DNA from: a virus
IMG/VR virus record: IMGVR_UViG_3300000405_000017
Span: 8,556 to 35,362 of that record
Direction: 5' to 3' (one strand)
DNA length: 26,807 nt
A program made the translations under genes and the position numbers. Under the pieces are notes generated by a model. It saw only the letters and a list, made by a program, of their open reading frames with translations, was not told the DNA's origin and did no database searches. Position 1 is the stretch's first letter. Every line of letters begins with the position of its first letter. Of the stretch, positions 2,241 to 19,480 are shown in pieces.

Positions 2241-2507
2241 ATGAGTGAAGTAAAAAAAGTATGGAATAAAGATGGTGAAAGATTACGTCTTAGTAATCCT
2301 TCAAAAGAGTTTTCAGTGTTAGAAAATGCAATTTATATAATTGGTCTTGATGATTACGGTTTCTATTTAAGTAAAAAAAGTGATGGTTATGATTTTAATT
2401 ATAAGATTTATGGTCTTGAAAGCTCTTTTATTGATAGAACTATTAAAACGTATAGTTTAACTGATAATAATTTAGGTATATTATTAAATGGTTTAAAAGG
2501 TACTGGT
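2241..2507 (+). CDS. AAA-family ATPase, exon 1 (residues 1-89)
   Basis: First exon of a 416-residue ATPase. The 89 codons end in NGLKGTG, the first six positions of a Walker A loop; the missing K-T pair is found 1173 nt downstream at 3681. Unspliced, the frame adds N-C and stops at 2514-2516. Exon 1 ends in T (GGT), as group I introns require, and exon 2 resumes in the same frame, so splicing would restore GLKGTGKT exactly. Residues 1-75 are a small N-terminal domain without an obvious family. Without splicing, only a short protein lacking the catalytic lysine would be made. Confidence 0.8.
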
Positions 2508-3680
2508 AATTGTTAAACTTTTGTAATCTTTTAGATATTTATATTTAAAAGATATTATTAAAATTGGTGAATTATATGAATCGGGTGTAAGTGCAACACA
2601 AATATCTAAAACTTTAGGTATTAGCTTATACAAAGTGTTAAAACGTTTAAAAAGGTTAGGTGTAAACGTTTATAATAAACAAAATGTTATAAAATGGGAT
2701 GTTAATACTTTCATTAAATTATACAACGAAGGGAAAACTTTAACAGAGATTTCAGAAATTTGTATTGTTTCAGTTTCAACTGTTTCGTTAGCTTTAAAGA
2801 AGATAAAATTTAAAGTTAATAATAAGCAAAATGAAACTAAGTTTAATGAAAATATATTTAATGTTATAGATAACGAAGAAAAGGCTTATTGGTTAGGATT
2901 TATCTACGCTGATGGTTATGTTTCATACGATAGAAACACTTTTGAGTTATCTTTATCGTTAAAAGATATTGAACATTTAAAACGATTTGCTGATTTTATG
3001 GGTTATTCTGATAATGTTAAAACAGATGATTATCGATGTAGGTTTTATGTGTCTAATAAGCATTTAAAAGCTAGATTGATTGAGTTAGGTGTTATACCTA
3101 GAAAATCATTAACACTTACATTTCCAACATCAGAACAAGTTCCAAATAATTTAATTCATCATTTTATAAGAGGGTATTTTGATGGTGATGGTACCATAAT
3201 AACAAAAGAAACTAGTTGTGTTAAATTACGAATTTCTTTATTAGGTACTGAATCATTCTTAAAAAGTGTATTATATGCGGTTGATATAGAAAAGAAAGTT
3301 TATAAAACTAAAAGTAAAGTTATGTATTTTGCGTTAGCGGTTAAAAACTCTACTAAATTTTGTGAATATATCTATAAAGACTGTACAATTACTTTATTAC
3401 GAAAAAAATATCTTTATGAAAGATTGCCGTCTTAGGTAGAAATACTTAAGATTATGAGAGGGTAAAAACGGTGGAAGGTGAGAATCCCAATACCGTGCTA
3501 AGACAATAGATTTCGAAAGGCTATTGGACAGTGTAACGCATAGATGGTGAATAAATATAATCCATCCACGAGTATCCTCCATCTTAACAAGTAAAGTTGA
3601 AGATGAAAATATATGCTGAGCTATAGCGAATATGAAGCTATAGAACTATGGGATAAAAAGCCTATAGGGTAACAAAACTG
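2508..3680 (+). mobile_element. Group I-type intron in the P-loop of the AAA ATPase
   Basis: Boundaries are set by protein continuity: GGT at 2505-2507 (Gly) and AAA ACA at 3681-3686 (Lys-Thr) rebuild a Walker A motif in frame. The exon ends in U and the intron ends in G (AAAACTG), the two hallmarks of group I introns. A possible internal guide, ATTGCCG at 3423-3429, pairs with TGGTAAT (2504-2510) across the 5' splice site with seven pairs, including U.G at the site. If right, the endonuclease gene lies in the P1 loop and overlaps the guide. The 3' part (about 3436-3680) is more GC-rich, non-coding and full of short complementary segments, as expected for a ribozyme core. I did not assign P3-P8. 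Confidence 0.75.
2635..3435 (+). CDS. LAGLIDADG homing endonuclease encoded in the intron
   Basis: Two LAGLIDADG motifs are clear: AYWLGFIYADGYV, and later FIRGYFDGDGTI with the acidic residue at the end of each helix. This is a single-chain endonuclease that would cut intronless alleles of the ATPase gene. A resolvase-like helix-turn-helix (FIKLYNEGKTLTEISE) precedes them. The start given is a GTG, but the frame stays open back to 2527 and encodes a second helix-turn-helix (IGELYESGVSATQISK) with no ATG, GTG or TTG before it. The true start is therefore either non-standard (an ATT at 2554, 2557 or 2563 is possible) or has been lost. The 3' end overlaps the proposed intron guide sequence. Confidence 0.8.
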   Translation: MLKRLKRLGVNVYNKQNVIKWDVNTFIKLYNEGKTLTEISEICIVSVSTVSLALKKIKFKVNNKQNETKFNENIFNVIDNEEKAYWLGFIYADGYVSYDRNTFELSLSLKDIEHLKRFADFMGYSDNVKTDDYRCRFYVSNKHLKARLIELGVIPRKSLTLTFPTSEQVPNNLIHHFIRGYFDGDGTIITKETSCVKLRISLLGTESFLKSVLYAVDIEKKVYKTKSKVMYFALAVKNSTKFCEYIYKDCTITLLRKKYLYERLPS

Positions 3681-4664
3681 AAAACAGTAACAGCTAAACA
3701 AATCGCAAATAAAGTTGAACAACCTATAATTGTTGTTGATACACCATATAAAGGTGTGCAAGGGTTTTTAAATAGTATCACTCAAAATATAACAATATTC
3801 ATTGATGAATATGAGAAAATTTTTGGTGATTCTTCAGCAATGTTAACTATTATGGATGGTGCGTTAAATTCAAGTTATCGAAGATTATTTTTATTGACAA
3901 CTAATCAGTTACACGTGGATAAAAATTTAATTCAACGTCCAAGTCGTATTCGTTATTTGAAGAAATTTAGCGATCTTAAACCAGCAGTTATTGAAGAAAT
4001 TGTTGATGATTTATTGGAAAACAAATCGTTTAGATCTGCTTGTATCCAATTCATGTCTAGTTTAGAGGTAATCACAGTTGATATTGTAAAATCAGTCTTG
4101 AATGAGGTAAATATGCATAATGAACAACCATCTGAATTTGAAGACATTTTTAATGTTAAAAAAATAAAAGGTAAGTATAATGTGATTATCAAAAATGATG
4201 ATAGTACTGTTTCTGAATTAGCAACATCAATATTATTAAGTCCTATCCCAGCATTTAATGAACATAATATTGGTAATCATTTTTATGTTGATTACCAATG
4301 TATTGGGGTAATTACTAAAATTATTAACTGGACAACATTTGAACTTTCACCAATTTTGGATCAAAAAGGAAAAGAAATTGGTTTTTCGACCCCAATTATA
4401 TTGAGTGTTGAAGATGCTGATCAAACTAATTACACTTATATTTTTGATCAACACTATTCATCAAAAATAGAAAAACCAGTTAAGAGTTCTTCACCATTGA
4501 TGGATTTAATAAAAAAAGGAATTATGTCAAACGCTAACGATAATACATTTGACATGATTGTAGACGAGCCTCAAGTTATGAGGTGTGAGAATATTGAGAT
4601 TTCTGATGATCGTTATCTTGATGGAGAATCTATTTGGGAAGTGGAATCAAAACAACCATTATAA
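3681..4664 (+). CDS. AAA-family ATPase, exon 2 (residues 90-416)
   Basis: This exon begins with the Walker A lysine and threonine (KTVTAKQIAN). Walker B follows as ITIFIDEYEKIF, a sensor-1-like segment as LFLLTTNQ, and a likely arginine finger in QRPSRIRYLKKF. These are the parts of an AAA+ motor that remodels protein or nucleic acid using ATP. The C-terminal 200 residues are not recognised. A gene caller that ignores splicing would start at the GTG at 3756 and lose the P-loop. A 34-nt perfect palindrome follows the stop and ends the transcription unit. The partner and target are unknown. Confidence 0.8.
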   Translation, partial: KTVTAKQIANKVEQPIIVVDTPYKGVQGFLNSITQNITIFIDEYEKIFGDSSAMLTIMDGALNSSYRRLFLLTTNQLHVDKNLIQRPSRIRYLKKFSDLKPAVIEEIVDDLLENKSFRSACIQFMSSLEVITVDIVKSVLNEVNMHNEQPSEFEDIFNVKKIKGKYNVIIKNDDSTVSELATSILLSPIPAFNEHNIGNHFYVDYQCIGVITKIINWTTFELSPILDQKGKEIGFSTPIILSVEDADQTNYTYIFDQHYSSKIEKPVKSSSPLMDLIKKGIMSNANDNTFDMIVDEPQVMRCENIEISDDRYLDGESIWEVESKQPL

Positions 4665-6093: not shown

Positions 6094-7644
6094 ATGATAA
6101 AAATAAATGATATATTAGTAGGTACGATACAATCGAATGTTAAGGGTTCAGCGTATTTTACTAGTTCTGACTTACCTAATGATATTTACTTAAATAAAAA
6201 TAATTTAAATAAAGCATTAAATTTAGATACAGTAAAAATTAAGGTTATTGTAGGTAATGGTGATGGTAGGCGCATTGAGGGCGTTGTTATTGAAGTAGTT
6301 GAACGATTTAGAAGTGAATATGTTGGTACTATACAATTAAGTGAAAAATTCGCATTTTTTATTTCAGATAGTAATAAGATAAATGTTGATTTCTTTATTC
6401 CATTAAGTAAACTTAATGGTGCTAAAGAAGGTGAAAAAGTGGTCGCTAAGATAACTGAATGGAAAGATGGTTCTAAAAACCCTAATGGTGAAATTATTAA
6501 GGTAATTGGGAATATTGGTGATCATGAAACTGAAATTCATAGTATTCTTGAAGAATTTGGTTTACCATATGAATTTTCAAGGGATGTATTGGATGAAGCT
6601 GAACTTATTTCTGAAGTAATAACTGATAAAGAAATTGCTAAAAGAAAAGATTTAAGACACCTAACTACCTGTACTATAGATGGTTATGATGCGAAAGATC
6701 TTGATGACGCACTAAGTTTAGAATGGGTTGATGGTAATATAAAAGTTTATATTCATATTGCTGATGTTTCTCATTATATAAAAGAAGGTTCTGAGATACA
6801 CGCAGAAGCCTTAAACCGATCAACATCAGTTTATTTATGTGATAGAGTGGTTCCAATGTTGCCAGAAAAATTAAGTAATAATTTATGTTCGTTAAACCCG
6901 AATACAGATAAATTAGTTTATTCGTTTATATTCACACTTGATCAAAACGCTAAGGTCATTAAGGAGGAGTTTGTTAAAGGTATAATTAACTCTAATTACC
7001 GTTTAACTTACACGGAGGTACAAAGTGTTATCGAGGGTGGTGAAACTCATTCTACTGAGCTTAAACAAGCCTTATTAGATTTGGATAGATATGCGAAAAA
7101 ACTTAAAAAGGTTATGAATAAAAATGGTTCATTAACTTTTAATAATGCTGAAGTTAAATTTAAACTTGATGAAAATAATAAACCAATCGATATATTCTTT
7201 TCTGTTCAAAAAGACGCAAATTTTTTAATTGAACAATTCATGGTTTTAACTAATAGAAGAGTTTGTGAATTTATTGCTAAGAAGGATGTTAAATCAATTC
7301 ATAGAACACATAACACCCCAGACCCAACAAAATTGTATGCATTAAAACAGTTTATTGAGACTATGGGTTATGCTTTAGATTTAAGTAATGAGGATAATAT
7401 AAAATCTGAATTAAATAATTTGGTTAAACAAGTTATTGGTACACCAGAAGAAACCATAGTAAATAATCTAATAGTTAGATGTATGGCTAAAGCTGAGTAC
7501 CAAAGTGATAATATTGGTCACTATGGGCTTGGTTTACAGTACTATACACATGTGACTTCACCTATTAGGAGGTTTTGTGATCTCCAAATTGGATATCAAT
7601 TATCTAATATATTAGGTAATGGAGGTTATCCTATTAAAGAATAA
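6094..7644 (+). CDS. rnr: RNase R, N-terminal part: cold-shock and RNB domains
   Basis: 516 residues closely matching bacterial RNase R, a processive 3'-5' exoribonuclease that degrades structured RNA and non-stop mRNA. Two cold-shock-like domains span about residues 1-150. The RNB catalytic domain has the metal-binding motif TIDGYDAKDLDDA (T194 to A206) with all four aspartates, and TSPIRRF at 488-494. The protein stops just after the RNB domain, where normal RNase R continues into an S1 domain. That S1 part is encoded separately at 11903-12301, after a 4.2-kb insertion. The N-terminal winged helix of long host enzymes is absent. Active as a two-chain enzyme or not, the catalytic residues are intact. 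Confidence 0.88.
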   Translation: MIKINDILVGTIQSNVKGSAYFTSSDLPNDIYLNKNNLNKALNLDTVKIKVIVGNGDGRRIEGVVIEVVERFRSEYVGTIQLSEKFAFFISDSNKINVDFFIPLSKLNGAKEGEKVVAKITEWKDGSKNPNGEIIKVIGNIGDHETEIHSILEEFGLPYEFSRDVLDEAELISEVITDKEIAKRKDLRHLTTCTIDGYDAKDLDDALSLEWVDGNIKVYIHIADVSHYIKEGSEIHAEALNRSTSVYLCDRVVPMLPEKLSNNLCSLNPNTDKLVYSFIFTLDQNAKVIKEEFVKGIINSNYRLTYTEVQSVIEGGETHSTELKQALLDLDRYAKKLKKVMNKNGSLTFNNAEVKFKLDENNKPIDIFFSVQKDANFLIEQFMVLTNRRVCEFIAKKDVKSIHRTHNTPDPTKLYALKQFIETMGYALDLSNEDNIKSELNNLVKQVIGTPEETIVNNLIVRCMAKAEYQSDNIGHYGLGLQYYTHVTSPIRRFCDLQIGYQLSNILGNGGYPIKE

Positions 7645-8158: not shown

Positions 8159-11100
8159 ATGAAAGATAAAACACAAGAATTTTTACAGAAGCTAAAAGAC
8201 TCTGGGAGCTGGAATGATGATTATGCTTATTCTAAGGTTGAGTATACTGGAATCGATAATAAAGTTATTATTATCGATGAATTAGGTCACGAACATAGTG
8301 TGACTGCATATAATGTATCTAAGTGTTATAGGTTGTCACCGTTAAGTGTTGTTGATAAAAATAGATATTTTGCGACAAGATCAAAAATATTACACAATGA
8401 TAAATATGATTATTCAAAAGTAGATTATATTAGAAACAACGTTAATGTTATAATAATTTGTAAAGAACATGGTGAATTTGGCCAAACACCAGCAAATCAT
8501 TTGAGAAATAATGGGTGCCCTAAATGTTCAAATGATGTTAGTGGTGATGCACGTAAGTCAAATACTGTTGAATTTATAATCAAAGCTAAAATTATTCATG
8601 GTGATAAATATAATTACGCTGAAACTAAATATATTAAGGCAAAAACAAAACTTAAAATAATTTGCTCAACGCATGGTGAATTTGAACAAATAGCACAAAG
8701 TCATTTAAGTGGGTCTGGTTGTCCTGTTTGTAGTAATAATAAACAATTGTCAAATGAAAATTTTATTATTCGGGTTAAAAAGGTACATGGTGATAAATAT
8801 GATTATAGTAAAGTTAATTACGTTAATAATCACGATAAAATTATTGTGGTTTATAATGGTTTTGAACATTTAGTCACACCAGCTAGTATATTAAGAGGTG
8901 AGTTAATTACAAAAAGTATTATTGATAAAACAGGTTATTATATTAGAGAATATAATAAAATACATGGTGATAAATATGATTATTCTTTATTTAAATATGT
9001 TAACTCACAAAGTAATATTAAGATAATTTGTCCAGAACATGGTGTATTTGAACAAAGACCTACTCACCATTTAAGTGGGTCTGGTTGTATTAAATGTGGT
9101 GGTCGATATAGCCCAAATACTAATGAGGTTATTACCCAATTTAATAAAATTCATGAAAATAAATATGATTATTCTTCGGTTGAATATATAAATGATCGTA
9201 CTATTATAAATATAATATGTGCAGTACATGGTTTATTCACTCAAACACCAAGTAACCATAAGCGTGGTCAAGGTTGCCTAAAATGTAGTCAAGGTTATTC
9301 AAAAACAGTTAAAATAAATTTAATTAACCAATTAGTAGAATCTGACCTTTTAACAATGGACCCATTTGAAATTTACACAATCATTAGTCAAGGTAAACTA
9401 CCAGTAGATTTTCAAGCACTAGTACATACTGATGCTGTGTCAGATGAACGTATAGTTACTTTACGTGAACTTAGAGATCAGTTATCCAATGAAGCAGAAG
9501 AATCATCAGATGGTATACTTAACACTATTATAGATGATAATACTACTGAGTTTACTGAAATTGATGCTGTTGATTCTGAAATTACATCAAATAGAACTAA
9601 TGAACAAAGATTACCATCTATAAATGTTACTGGTGATTTACATTCATTAGATAATTCATTATACACATCTATGGATGAAGAAGCTTTTGAATCTCTAATC
9701 CAATATAAATTACGTAAACTATGGAATAACATTTTAAATAATGATATAACTATTGATTCACTTAAAAATGAAAATGGTGGGAAATACTTTACAATGATTA
9801 AAGATATGTTCTTAAATGAATATAATGAAATCATCGGTTATGAACCTAAAGGAAATTATCAGTTCAAGTTCAAACCTAATTTGATGCAGAAGCTAACAGT
9901 TTCTAGATTGATTAAAAATAAATCATACGGGAATTGGTCTGGAACAGGTGCTGGTAAAACACTATCTTTTATTATTGGTAGTAGAGAAGTAGAATCTAAA
10001 CTAACGCTTATAATAGCTTTAAATTCTACAATAAAACAAACGTGCAATGTAATCAAAGAAGTGTATCCAGATAGCAAATGTTTCACTGAGTATAATAAAG
10101 GTTATTTGTTTGATCGAAATGATAATAACTATTTAGTGTTGAACTATGAAAAATTCCAACAAGAGTATTCAGAAGAGTTATTTCAAGATTTAACAAATAC
10201 AAATCAGATTGATTTTCTTGTTATTGATGAGGTTCATAATGCAAAACAACGTGAAGAAGAACATGAATCAATTAGACGTGGAGTCATGAATCGTTTATTG
10301 GGTAGAATACGTGAGAACAACGATAACATTTATACTCTAGTTATGTCAGCAACACCAGTTGTAAACAATTTATATGAAGCAAAATCATTACTATCACTTA
10401 TGACTGGTTTAGAATACAATGATCTACAAACTAGAAGAACGTTACCAAACGCATTGAAGGTGTTCCAACAATTAATACTTAATGGTTTAAGGTATATTCC
10501 TAAGTATGATATTGATATGTCTGAGTTGACTGGTAACAACATGAGCAACTTAAACATTGATGGTCAACATTTATTGGATGAGTTATTAACATTACCATCT
10601 AATAACTATATCGCAAGTGAAAAACTACTTTTAAATGATAAACTAAATACTATAACACCATATTTAAGAAAAGGTGTTATTATCTATAGTTATTTTACTA
10701 CTGGATTCATAACTGAAATTGAAACATACGTTAAATCTATGGGGTACTCTGTTGGAACATATACTGGTGAAGAATCAGTTACCTTTAGGGAGAATAACTT
10801 AAATAGTTTTATAAATGGTGGTATTGATATTCTTATAGGGTCAAGACCAATAGGAACTGGTGTCGATGGGTTACAAGATATATGTAATAGAATGATATTA
10901 ATTACATTGCCATGGACTGATTCAGAATACACACAATTAAAAGGTCGTATCTACCGTCAAGGATCAGAATTTAAAGATGTCGAAATAATTATTCCTCAAG
11001 TTAGAATTGAGTTAGATGAAGGAGAATTTTGGTCATGGGATATCCAAAGGTTAAATCTTATTAAGAATAAGAAGACACTTGCAGATGCTGCTGTTGACGG

Positions 11101-11845
11101 TGTTATCCCTTCTATAATTTTACCAACAAGAGAAACTATGTTTAGAAAATCGCAAGAATCGCTTATTAGATGGAAAGAACGTATTAATGATGGTAACATT
11201 ATAGAGACAAATAGATGTGTTTCATCGGTTCATTTATACCCAGAAATATTGGATATTAATGAACGTGAAAAAAGAATCACTTCAGAATTATCTGAATTTA
11301 ATAGACGTGGTAAAATAACTCGTTCTGAAACTATGAATAAAGAATTTACAGATAATCCAGAATCATGGTTTAGGTATCATTCGTTACGTAAAGAACGTAT
11401 GGTTCAATGGGAAGAAATTCCTTATGAATATATTTCGACAAAGATAAAAAATAAAAACCATAAGGTTGTTGATTTTGGTTGTGGTGAGAATCTGTTTAAA
11501 AATTGCATTTCTAATGAGGTTATATCATTTGACCATGTAGCTTATGATGATTCAGTTATAGCTTGCGATATTAAGGATGTTAGTGGTTTTTTAGATGATG
11601 AGAGTGTTGATGTAACTATGTTTAGTCTTGCTTTATGGGGTACAAACTATAAAGATTATATGTTAGAAGCTTATCGAGTATTGAATTATGGTGGGGTGAT
11701 TCACATAGCTGAACCAGCTAAATATTATGAAATTGAAGAAGATGAATCTAAATTGGTTGATTTAATTAGTGAAGTTGGGTTCAAGGTAGTTGGTGAGATA
11801 GAGAAAAGAGGTAAATTTATTTATATTACTGGAATTAAAATGTAA
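8159..11845 (+). CDS. Treble-clef repeat / SNF2 helicase / Rrp8-like methyltransferase fusion
   Basis: 1228 residues in three parts. Residues 20-376 hold a degenerate unit and five repeats of about 53 residues (70-123, 138-191, 202-248, 261-313, 324-376), with the pattern HGDKYDYSKVxY then IICxxHGxFxQ and GCxKC. These are zinc treble-clef units usually attached to Vsr-like homing endonucleases; the third lacks its cysteines. Residues 560-1000 are an SF2/SNF2 helicase: GTGAGKT at 595-601, DEVH at 690-693, MSATP, IGTGVDGLQ and QLKGRIYRQG. The C-terminus (about 1090-1228) is a SAM methyltransferase with VVDFGCGE, the SFDHVAYD segment, MFSLALWGTN and EAYRVLNYGG. That order is very like Rrp8, an rRNA m1A methyltransferase. 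No nuclease motif is visible. It may recognise, remodel and methylate a nucleic acid. Confidence 0.85.
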   Translation: MKDKTQEFLQKLKDSGSWNDDYAYSKVEYTGIDNKVIIIDELGHEHSVTAYNVSKCYRLSPLSVVDKNRYFATRSKILHNDKYDYSKVDYIRNNVNVIIICKEHGEFGQTPANHLRNNGCPKCSNDVSGDARKSNTVEFIIKAKIIHGDKYNYAETKYIKAKTKLKIICSTHGEFEQIAQSHLSGSGCPVCSNNKQLSNENFIIRVKKVHGDKYDYSKVNYVNNHDKIIVVYNGFEHLVTPASILRGELITKSIIDKTGYYIREYNKIHGDKYDYSLFKYVNSQSNIKIICPEHGVFEQRPTHHLSGSGCIKCGGRYSPNTNEVITQFNKIHENKYDYSSVEYINDRTIINIICAVHGLFTQTPSNHKRGQGCLKCSQGYSKTVKINLINQLVESDLLTMDPFEIYTIISQGKLPVDFQALVHTDAVSDERIVTLRELRDQLSNEAEESSDGILNTIIDDNTTEFTEIDAVDSEITSNRTNEQRLPSINVTGDLHSLDNSLYTSMDEEAFESLIQYKLRKLWNNILNNDITIDSLKNENGGKYFTMIKDMFLNEYNEIIGYEPKGNYQFKFKPNLMQKLTVSRLIKNKSYGNWSGTGAGKTLSFIIGSREVESKLTLIIALNSTIKQTCNVIKEVYPDSKCFTEYNKGYLFDRNDNNYLVLNYEKFQQEYSEELFQDLTNTNQIDFLVIDEVHNAKQREEEHESIRRGVMNRLLGRIRENNDNIYTLVMSATPVVNNLYEAKSLLSLMTGLEYNDLQTRRTLPNALKVFQQLILNGLRYIPKYDIDMSELTGNNMSNLNIDGQHLLDELLTLPSNNYIASEKLLLNDKLNTITPYLRKGVIIYSYFTTGFITEIETYVKSMGYSVGTYTGEESVTFRENNLNSFINGGIDILIGSRPIGTGVDGLQDICNRMILITLPWTDSEYTQLKGRIYRQGSEFKDVEIIIPQVRIELDEGEFWSWDIQRLNLIKNKKTLADAAVDGVIPSIILPTRETMFRKSQESLIRWKERINDGNIIETNRCVSSVHLYPEILDINEREKRITSELSEFNRRGKITRSETMNKEFTDNPESWFRYHSLRKERMVQWEEIPYEYISTKIKNKNHKVVDFGCGENLFKNCISNEVISFDHVAYDDSVIACDIKDVSGFLDDESVDVTMFSLALWGTNYKDYMLEAYRVLNYGGVIHIAEPAKYYEIEEDESKLVDLISEVGFKVVGEIEKRGKFIYITGIKM

Positions 11846-16788: not shown

Positions 16789-16859
16789 TGAGATATAGCA
16801 TATTTTGGATGTATTCACTTTATTAAAGTGATACTTTGGTTCGATTCCATATATCTCAA
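16789..16859 (+). tRNA. tRNA-like RNA 1, anticodon ATT (Asn-like), reduced
   Basis: The acceptor arms TGAGATA and TATCTCA pair perfectly over 7 bp, with discriminator A. The D stem GCAT/ATGT is small. The anticodon stem TCACT/AGTGA is perfect with loop TTATTAA, giving anticodon ATT. The T arm has TTCGATT but one mismatch, and the variable loop is only 3 nt. An A at position 34 is unusual, since Asn tRNAs normally have GTT. This is the only one of the five with a pairable anticodon arm. CCA is not encoded. Confidence 0.45.
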
Positions 16860-17071
16860 CGAACTCGACTCGTATATGGTGTGTTTGTATATAACACATT
16901 CTTTAGTTTTATTGACTAGGTATAAAATATTCGTAGCGGTTGAAATGAAAACGATTCAATCTGGGTGGTTTGTCATATAAAGGTTAAAACCTTGTATATA
17001 CTATATGTCAAATCATTAACAAGTGAGAATATCTATGAGATTACCCAAAGCGGACTTTCTAAGTAGATGAT
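16860..17071 (+). other. Structured non-coding spacer in the tRNA-like region
   Basis: No credible ORF. Two hairpins are visible: GGTTGAA/TTCAATC (16938-16944 and 16955-16961), and a nested pair with TTTGTCATATA (16969-16979) against TATATGTCAAA (17002-17012) enclosing AAGG/CCTT. It has no tRNA T-loop motif. It could be a processing spacer or a separate small RNA. Confidence 0.35.
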
Positions 17072-17145
17072 TACTGTATAGCTCAGTTGGTTAAGAGCGT
17101 CTGGCGGAAGTTGGAGGGGCGTTGGTTCGAATCCAACTACAGTAA
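17072..17145 (+). tRNA. tRNA-like RNA 2 (Phe-like), anticodon stem does not pair
   Basis: Total length 74 nt, the normal size. Acceptor TACTGTA/TACAGTA, D stem GCTC/GAGC with an AGTTGGTTAA loop, and T arm GTTGG-TTCGAAT-CCAAC are all perfect. The anticodon arm, TCTGG-CGGAAGT-TGGAG, does not pair, and U33 is replaced by G. If read by position, the anticodon would be GAA (Phe). The 3' half is strikingly G-rich for this genome (GGCGGAAGTTGGAGGGG). Confidence 0.5.
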
Positions 17146-17265
17146 CAAGCCTAACACTAGGGCTACAAACAAGGTGGGTTTTTATGTTGACCAGAAAAAT
17201 ATACGCTATACTGTTGGTGTTACAGACATTTGACTACTAGGAAGCAAATAATAGTTCTAGTTGAT
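17146..17265 (+). other. Spacer between tRNA-like RNAs 2 and 3
   Basis: About 120 nt without a supported gene. A short ATG frame at 17174 is not convincing. Short inverted repeats (AGCC/GGCT near its start, CTAG/CTAG near its end) suggest RNA structure or processing sites. Confidence 0.3.
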
Positions 17266-17365
17266 TGGTGATTGGCAGAGTGGTTTAATGCTAAACTAAA
17301 AATAGTCTGATATGGGTGTTTTAGCATTAAATTGATGACCGTAGGTTCGAATCCTACATCACCAA
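17266..17365 (+). tRNA. tRNA-like RNA 3 (class II-like), anticodon arm disrupted
   Basis: Acceptor TGGTGAT/ATCACCA and T arm GTAGG-TTCGAAT-CCTAC are perfect, with discriminator A. The D region GGCAGAGTGGTTTAATGC is that of Ser-type class II tRNAs. At 100 nt it is about 12 nt longer than usual. No 5-bp anticodon stem with a 7-nt loop and U33 exists. Instead TTTAATGCTAAA (17284-17295) is perfectly complementary to TTTAGCATTAAA (17320-17331), which would consume part of the D arm. Confidence 0.45.
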
Positions 17366-17422
17366 CGCTAATTAAGCTAGTTTATGAACAGCAAATAAGG
17401 TGTGATTCCTTATTATTAGGTT

Positions 17423-17495
17423 AAATGTGTAGCTCAGTTGGTTAGAGCAAGGGTGTAATAGCTGGGGGTCAGTGGTTCGAGTCCATTCACATTTA
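17423..17495 (+). tRNA. tRNA-like RNA 4, anticodon stem does not pair
   Basis: Normal length (73 nt). Acceptor AAATGTG/CACATTT and D stem GCTC/GAGC are perfect, and T arm AGTGG-TTCGAGT-CCATT pairs with one G.T. The anticodon arm, AGGGT-GTAATAG-CTGGG, cannot pair (mostly G opposite G). By position the anticodon would be AAT (Ile), which normally needs a G or modified base at 34. A GGGGG run follows, as in tRNA-like RNAs 2 and 5. Confidence 0.5.
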
Positions 17496-18144: not shown

Positions 18145-18585
18145 ATGAAAAGTGTTGTAAATAATCGAAAAGTATATTTTGAATATGAAATATTAGAAAA
18201 AATAACTGCTGGTATTTGCCTTAAGGGTTCTGAGATTAAAAGTGTTAGACACAGTTCAGTTTCAATAAGTGAAGCGTATTGTTTTATTAAAAATGGTGAG
18301 ATTTTTATTAAAGGTATGAACATTTCCATTTTCGAAAAGGGTGGTTTATATAATAACCATGAACCATTAAGAGAACGTAAATTATTATTGAATAAAAGGG
18401 AGATAATAAAATTACAAGAAAATATTTCACAAAAGGGGTTGACAATTGTACCGATAGAAGTAATATTAAATGATACTGGCTTCGTTAAGGTAATTATTGG
18501 ATTGGGTCGAGGAAAGAATAATTATGATAAAAGAGTATCTTTAAAGGATAAGGATCTAAAACGAGATTTAGATCGAAATATTTAA
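18145..18585 (+). CDS. smpB: SsrA-binding protein SmpB
   Basis: 146 residues, close to the normal SmpB length. The family landmarks are all present: NRKVYFEYEILEKITAGI, LKGSEIKSVR, IKGMNISIFEKGG, NNHEPLRERKLLLNKREI, KGLTIVPIE, GLGRGKNNYDKR. SmpB binds the tRNA-like domain of tmRNA, replaces its missing anticodon arm and enters the A site of ribosomes stalled on truncated mRNA. The C-terminal tail, which occupies the empty mRNA channel, is present but short (VSLKDKDLKRDLDRNI). No standard tmRNA gene is visible here. Nearby are RNase R, the exonuclease that works with SmpB-tmRNA, and tRNA-like RNAs without normal anticodon arms. The phage may use host tmRNA or its own unusual RNAs. Confidence 0.92.
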   Translation: MKSVVNNRKVYFEYEILEKITAGICLKGSEIKSVRHSSVSISEAYCFIKNGEIFIKGMNISIFEKGGLYNNHEPLRERKLLLNKREIIKLQENISQKGLTIVPIEVILNDTGFVKVIIGLGRGKNNYDKRVSLKDKDLKRDLDRNI

Positions 18586-18610: not shown

Positions 18611-19480
18611 ATGCGAAATTTTGTTATTACTAAAAGTAATACGAATCTTGAGAATGATTCACTTAAACGTTATCTAAGGGAGGTATCATCGATACCACAA
18701 TTTATATTAGATGAAGAAATTATATGTGCTTCAAAAGCAAGTTTAGGTGATAAGGTAGCTTTTGATGAATTAATAACACGTAACTTACGTTTTGTTGTTA
18801 GTGTGGCTAAATCATATGTTACTCCTTCAATACATCTAATCGATTTGATTAATGAGGGTAATATTGGTTTGATTAAAGCTGCTGAAAAGTTCGATCCAAG
18901 TAATGGGTTTAAATTTATATCTTATGCTGTATGGTGGATTCAAAAAGGTATTTTAGATTATTTAGTTAAGTATGGTAGAACGATTAGATTTCCAGCTAAC
19001 CAGATTAATGGTTTAAGTAAACTAGATAAGAAAATATCTAATTTAGAACAAATTCATGAGCGAAATATATATATTAGTGATATACTTGAAACGGTTGAAA
19101 AATCTGATTTAAACGATTATGAGTTATTAACAGTATTAACCACTTACTCAATGGATTCATTAGATCGTGAAATAGGTGGTGAAGACGGAAACACTAGTGT
19201 ATTGGGTGATTTTATATTTGATGAAGATAGTTATGGTAACACAGATAAGTTAACAAAATTAAGTGATTCAAAATTAGAAGTTGAAAAGATTTTAAACTTA
19301 CTTAAACCTAGGGATCGTCAAATGATCATTATGCTTTTTGGCCTTGACGGTAATGAACCTAAGACACTTAAGGAAGTTGGTGATCATTTTGGTTTCAGTG
19401 GAGAATTAATTAGACAAATTCGTCAAAAGTCTTTGCTTATGTTAAAAGATAAACTGTCAAAACAAATGTCTTTTTATTAA
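18611..19480 (+). CDS. RNA polymerase sigma-70 family factor, primary (RpoD-like) type
   Basis: 289 residues, the size of the Bacteroidetes primary sigma. Region 1.2 is SLKRYLREVSSIPQ. Region 2 has DLINEGNIGLIKAAEKFD, then FKFISYAVWWIQKGI and RTIRFP. Region 3 is short and diverged. Region 4 has LKPRDRQMIIMLFGLDG and the helix-turn-helix TLKEVGDHFGFSGELIRQI. In the recognition helix, the residues matching sigma70 R584 and R586 are G and L, while E585, R588 and Q589 are kept. A changed -35 preference is therefore likely. Region 2, which reads the -10/-7 element, is well conserved. It would let the phage redirect host polymerase to its own promoters, perhaps those with TTAGG. Confidence 0.92.
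   Translation: MRNFVITKSNTNLENDSLKRYLREVSSIPQFILDEEIICASKASLGDKVAFDELITRNLRFVVSVAKSYVTPSIHLIDLINEGNIGLIKAAEKFDPSNGFKFISYAVWWIQKGILDYLVKYGRTIRFPANQINGLSKLDKKISNLEQIHERNIYISDILETVEKSDLNDYELLTVLTTYSMDSLDREIGGEDGNTSVLGDFIFDEDSYGNTDKLTKLSDSKLEVEKILNLLKPRDRQMIIMLFGLDGNEPKTLKEVGDHFGFSGELIRQIRQKSLLMLKDKLSKQMSFY

Follow-up and report, generated by a model that had tools for sequence, protein, structure and literature searches.

A probable group IA intron between the Walker A glycine and lysine of a phage ATPase gene, and its relatives at other P-loops

Why does a phage AAA+ ATPase gene break off inside its Walker A motif and resume more than a kilobase downstream? The gene lies in a 26,807-nucleotide stretch (the window) of IMG/VR virus record IMGVR_UViG_3300000405_000017, positions 8,556 to 35,362, and window coordinates are used unless another locus is named. 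A sequence-only reading had placed a group I-type intron at the break. We compared the locus with homologues and structural relatives in other phages, and conclude that the insert very probably belongs to the group I introns of the phage IA type and is both mobile and self-splicing.

The divided ATPase gene

The open reading frame at 2241-2516 ends in LNGLKGTG/NC and a stop codon (slashes mark the junction), with T2507 as the last exon base; its exonic part, 2241-2507, translates as ...NNLGILLNGLKGTG, and the frame closes two codons on (AAT TGT TAA). In the matching phase, exon 2 opens at 3681 with AAA ACA (K T), preceded by G3680, and reads KTVTAKQIANKVEQP...IFIDEYEK...LLTTNQ, beginning KTVTAKQ. 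These frames and coordinates agree with the earlier description of an exon 1 ending in GLKGTG and an exon 2 beginning with KT in the same frame, with U before the 5' site and G at the 3' end. Searched alone against Pfam, exon 2 matched AAA (PF00004, E 5.6e-5) from profile position 11, which is inside Walker A, and the joined exons are predicted to encode an AAA+ ATPase.

A protein search of IMG/VR with exon 2 gave 24 loci, the best homologues being 44-62% identical, and in nearly all the intronless loci among them the upstream frame was unbroken. More than 15 related phage contigs lacking the intron read straight through the junction as LGILLNGLKGTG/KTVSSK (the LNGLKGTG/KTVSSK form), and further intronless homologues do so as LNGVKGTG/KTVTSK and LSGIKGTG/KTVTAK. 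Loci L013 and L014 share the window's intron, at an identical site, with ...GGATAAAAAGCTTATAGGGTAACAAAACTG immediately 5' of AAAACT; in L013 the end of exon 1 and the start of the intron are GGAACTGGT/AATTGTTAA. Because intronless homologues are unbroken at this point and L013 and L014 have their intron at the same point, we place the window intron at exactly 2508-3680 and do not regard the junction as a chance feature. The proposed alignment with intronless homologues thus upholds a junction between the Walker A glycine and lysine, with the P-loop restored. At 3960-4010 of locus L011, an ATPase homologue lacks the stretch from near its start to SSK, the whole of Walker A included, which is either a deletion or an assembly error.

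Elsewhere on the plus strand, the window encodes an RNase R-like RNB exonuclease (6094-7644, E 4e-104), SmpB (18145-18585, PF01668, E 4e-51) and a sigma-70 factor (18611-19480). SmpB and RNase R are partners in tmRNA rescue, and a search of the window for tmRNA found none despite the presence of both genes. A 1,228-aa protein (8159-11845) combines repeated 'KIHGDKYDYS' zinc-finger-like units (DUF4379) with a DEAD/ResIII helicase and a C-terminal methyltransferase, and four clustered tRNA genes were called by covariance model at 16789-17495, of which ARAGORN accepts two, one with an undetermined anticodon.

Features of the divided ATPase gene and its predicted intron (window coordinates)
Feature	Position	Strand	Basis
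Exon 1, phage AAA+ ATPase; first half of Walker A, ending GLKGTG	2241..2507	+	Open reading frame; homologues unbroken across junction
Predicted group I (IA-type) intron, 1,173 nt; starts AAUUGUUAA, in-frame stop at 2514-2516, ends in omega-G	2508..3680	+	Intronless homologues, covariation, covariance model
LAGLIDADG homing endonuclease with N-terminal helix-turn-helix segment; in P1 loop, overlapping guide sequence and P2	2557..3435	+	PF14528, L013 homologue
Internal guide sequence AUUGCCG, P1 3' strand	3423..3429	+	Pairs with UGGU/AAU; relatives share site; compensatory change in L003
P2 hairpin	3430..3451	+	Fold
P3 5' strand, pairs with 3573-3579	3458..3464	+	7 pairs, two-sided changes in all; paired 87.7% in A1, 98% in A2
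P4 (3468-3472/3492-3496) and short P5 (3477-3478/3486-3487)	3468..3496	+	57-sequence alignment
P6 and P6a	3497..3532	+	99% and 91% paired; every pair covaries
P7 5' strand A-c-GCAUA, C3537 bulged 5' of G3538; pairs with 3612-3617	3536..3542	+	100% paired, 57 sequences
P7.1, between P7 and P3 3' strand	3543..3566	+	99.3% paired; 5/5 pairs covary
P3 3' strand	3573..3579	+	57-sequence alignment
P8 hairpin	3580..3605	+	86% paired; two-sided change in 6/6 pairs
P7 3' strand UAUGCU	3612..3617	+	57-sequence alignment
P9 (3621-3643) and P9.1 (3646-3667)	3621..3667	+	97% and 95% paired, with covariation
Exon 2, ATPase; opens with KT, completing Walker A; Walker B IFIDEYEK and sensor LLTTNQ follow	3681..4664	+	PF00004 AAA E 5.6e-5, homologues

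Guide helix and catalytic core

The guide helix drawn in the sequence-only reading, seven pairs with U.G at the site, stands. In the window, ATTGCCG meets UGGU/AAU in T.G, G-C, G-C, U.G at the splice site, A-U, A-U and U-A, giving P1 a length of 7-8 pairs when one additional U.G is counted. Guide sequences of relatives covary with their exons (AUUGCCG with UGGU/AAU, UUUGCCG with GGGU/AAA, UUUGUCG with CGAU/AAA), and each pairing puts U.G at the splice site; the last of these pairings is a compensatory change in L003, and L002 shows a compensatory change too. We claim P1 for the window, L001, L002, L003, L013 and L031 only, because an automatic guide-sequence search gave spurious pairings in several relatives. 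The omega-G, G3680, is present in 57/57 relatives, the scan pattern itself having ended with G for most of them. The predicted fold of RNA 3420-3690 is 4.3 sd more stable than those of shuffled sequence (z = -4.3), and by the covariance model described below the window's own 35-kb record holds this single copy of the intron.

Two exon-blind pattern scans of viral contigs recovered at least about 190 loci with the core. For 57 of these sequences (alignment A1) we traced a group I fold with its P3/P7 pseudoknot and then counted pairs: 92.5% of cells were paired, against 67.9% in shuffled and 34-42% in slid alignments, with two-sided changes at 45 of 53 pairs and a covariation score of 0.621 (shuffled, 0.179). 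P3 covaries at 7/7 pairs and is paired in 98% of cells in A2, a subset selected on P4 only (n=41). P7 is paired in 57/57 sequences and has two covarying pairs, the one below the bulge (A-U in 28, G-C in 26, C-G in 3) and the fourth (A-U in 29, G-C in 28), while the G-C pair beside the bulge, G3538-C3616, is invariant in all 57. A P7 bulge with an invariant G-C marks the place of the group I guanosine site (Tetrahymena 262-264/311-312), and G3538-C3616 is the expected guanosine-binding pair. Covariation gives strong support to the predicted P3, P4, P6, P7 with its bulge, P7.1, P8, P9 and P9.1, and every core position invariant in the 57 relatives is intact in the window, in P7, J8/7 and the AUAAAAA and UAACAAAA segments. 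A first manual placement of P7 (CGAGUAU with AUGCUG) was rejected: those bases are the P3 3' strand in relatives, and the true P7 lies upstream of P7.1. Covariation and the covariance model described below argue for the group I character first proposed for the insert, and its probable assignment to group IA rests on P7.1 and on kinship to the T4 and Twort introns.

The catalytic core that a structure search was expected to find escaped the standard model and was recovered by our own. RF00028 gave no match in the window or its contig, permissive settings included, and all other Rfam families, like RF00028, gave chance-level matches only, besides tRNAs, in the window and in 3380-3720 alone. At E 0.1 or better RF00028 detected 0/10 loci (window, L001-L004, L013, L029, L031, L035, L036), the annotated two-exon terL gene of JCL1032 being one of the nine relatives. 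Since all relatives tested, the annotated JCL1032 terL intron among them, were missed too, we read this silence as a gap in the model. R1, a covariance model of P3 to the P7 3' strand built from the window's relatives, scored the window, itself within the training set, at 166 bits. Outside the seed it found the Lactobacillus JCL1032 terL intron (E 1.1e-29), the T4 nrdD intron (E 5.8e-7; annotated 'group 1A' in the T4 record) and three consecutive matches in Twort at 16.65-17.49 kb (E 9.9e-6, 9.3e-4 and 6.2e-3), which adjoin an ORF annotated as an intron-encoded nuclease and which we take to be the orf142 introns. In 16 loci of intronless homologues (140 kb), R1 had no match at E 0.1. Four R1 matches occur at 2423-4557 of L034, a region where the major capsid gene of bajarodcaudo virus 1 is split.

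The phage intron family is thus large and unreported by Rfam's standard group I model. RF00028 being blind to it, genes so split are easily mis-annotated as separate fragments, and phage intron censuses based on RF00028 may under-count.

Endonuclease, mechanism and competing explanations

The endonuclease ORF carries two LAGLIDADG motifs with acidic residues, WLGFIYADGYV and FIRGYFDGDGTI (FIYADGYV, GYFDGDGTI), the second covered by a match to LAGLIDADG_3 (PF14528, E 2.8e-9), and its product is 69% identical to that of L013. The frame has no ATG: it is listed from GTG 2635, and the ATG of L013 aligns with ATT 2557. Which of the two, ATT 2557 or GTG 2635, is the start is uncertain, and given the absent ATG the endonuclease may be poorly expressed or decaying.

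Comparison of sequences thus establishes, as predicted features, the exon boundaries, the core helices, P1 with its U.G, the terminal G and the two-motif LAGLIDADG ORF, and we infer that the window intron splices. Guanosine bound at the P7 G-C pair would attack 3' of U2507, the freed exon 1 would then attack 3' of G3680, and ligation of GGU to AAA ACA would restore GLKGTGKT; the early in-frame stop would block readthrough before splicing. By cutting across the Walker A codons of alleles that lack the intron, the endonuclease would prompt repair that copies the intron in. An invariant target motif would keep the homing site present, and imprecise intron loss, like any splicing error at the window intron, would destroy the ATPase.

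Three other explanations have to be weighed. The insert could be group I by descent and have lost splicing, with the ATPase made as two fragments or absent; an endonuclease without the ATG seen in L013 and the internal GTG starts in exon 2 would suit such decay. However, the invariant core positions are intact, the exon frames are open and the Walker B and sensor motifs are kept, and we consider a degenerate intron very improbable. Protein-level splicing by an intein is brought to mind by the position, since inteins classically sit in the P-loop beside the conserved Lys/Thr (PMC5050341), and by the LAGLIDADG domains, which are found in inteins. Yet TAA at 2514-2516 closes the frame two codons into the insert, the endonuclease frame differs from that of exon 1, no Hint domain appears among the Pfam matches, and the RNA core is structured and covarying. 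In-frame stops and RNA covariation refute the intein reading, whose remaining probability we put at next to nothing.

The same very low probability attaches to a free-standing endonuclease between two separate genes (a split gene), with guide helix and RNA fold fortuitous. Annotators record such loci as endonuclease plus ATPase, and RF00028 calls no intron here; against this, intronless homologues restore the reading at the exact junction, the full group I core covaries, and R1 recovers known introns.

Recurrence at P-loops and comparison with known elements

With 3420-3690 as query, BLASTN matched 64 phage records; the top matches are 72-74% identical to it and span more than 80% of its length. 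The relatives come from unrelated phages and interrupt different genes, and each exon pair is made whole by excision: a RecD-like helicase of Bacillus PJN02 (GGGGMG/KS), DNA polymerase A of a Leptolyngbya phage, Lbo-JY46 (GFAI/NYGGNG), and an AAA ATPase of the crAss-like phage cr6_1 (GTKGTG/KT).

Among the matches listed in the exon-blind scan, exon 2 starts with K(S/T) in phase 0 in 12 of the 93 introns with an open exon 2, against a K(S/T) dipeptide background of 0.93% in the same exons (binomial p 9e-11, the counts being phylogenetically non-independent). A P-loop exon 1 lies 5' of at least 14 introns (window, L001, L002, L013, L031, L048, L057, L062, L072, L102, L132, L139, L144, L153); most of these 5' exons were chosen by the P-loop pattern itself and are support for the site, not proof. 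For L092, L103, L121 and L192, 5' exons were not located. Pfam classes of exon 2 at P-loop introns are AAA, RecD-like helicase, DnaB helicase, AAA_24 and SNF2; exon 2 of L072 and of L139, the latter without a Pfam match, we read as terminase-like.

Across the tree of endonucleases, P-loop cases cluster only mildly: the label needs 7 changes against 9.1 in shuffles (26/500 as low), at least 4 of them forced by well-supported branches. Since the label changes several times, arrival at the site, or its transfer, happened more than once; a single origin of all P-loop endonucleases is unsupported by these changes. Tentatively, as a possibility somewhat short of even, we propose that a widespread phage group IA lineage has repeatedly settled at G/K(S/T) of unrelated NTPases (AAA, RecD-like, DnaB, AAA_24, SNF2, terminase-like), the RNA counterpart of P-loop inteins, and that endonucleases or guide sequences recognising the shared GGU/AA(A/T) may allow the intron to move from one gene to another that is not homologous. 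According to reviews, critical residues are often encoded at homing sites (PMC3984707), and the earlier remark that homing introns favour invariant codons agrees with this and with the recurrence seen here. In the mainly open-access literature covered, we found no paper on group I introns that repeatedly enter P-loops.

IA-like introns are numerous in phages, and sampling of the phage subgroups is thin (PMC11878797); in gut jumbo phages, metatranscriptomes support the splicing of many predicted group I introns (PMC12363816). The introns of T4 nrdD/sunY, Twort orf142 and JCL1032 terL, all found by R1, have core helices P3-P9 and P7.1 in common with the window, although in primary sequence those of T4 and Twort have diverged from the window family (21-38 bits only). 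In T4 nrdD the endonuclease is of the GIY-YIG type and lies 3' of the core, whereas that of the window is a LAGLIDADG enzyme inside the P1 loop. The cr6_1 ATPase intron shares with that of the window an ATPase host gene, a LAGLIDADG ORF, the GTG/KT site and a 74% identical core, although its host gene is a distant homologue (31% identical). Group I introns have been reported in crAss-like phages, ATP_43b among the core genes included (Yutin et al. 2021, PMC7886860); in the text of that paper the P-loop goes unmentioned.

P-loop inteins (TerL1-a of mycobacteriophages and others; PMC5050341) are likewise selfish, carry a homing endonuclease and sit at the Walker A Lys/Thr of ATPases. The classic intein site is between Lys and Thr and is resolved by protein splicing, whereas the window intron sits a codon further upstream, at the Gly-Lys boundary, and would be removed by RNA splicing. 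The window holds an exact case of a probable self-splicing element between these two residues, and the family suggests that group I introns, besides inteins, concentrate at P-loops. The intron class and P-loop inteins are known; what the window adds is an unusually exact site and a family-level pattern.
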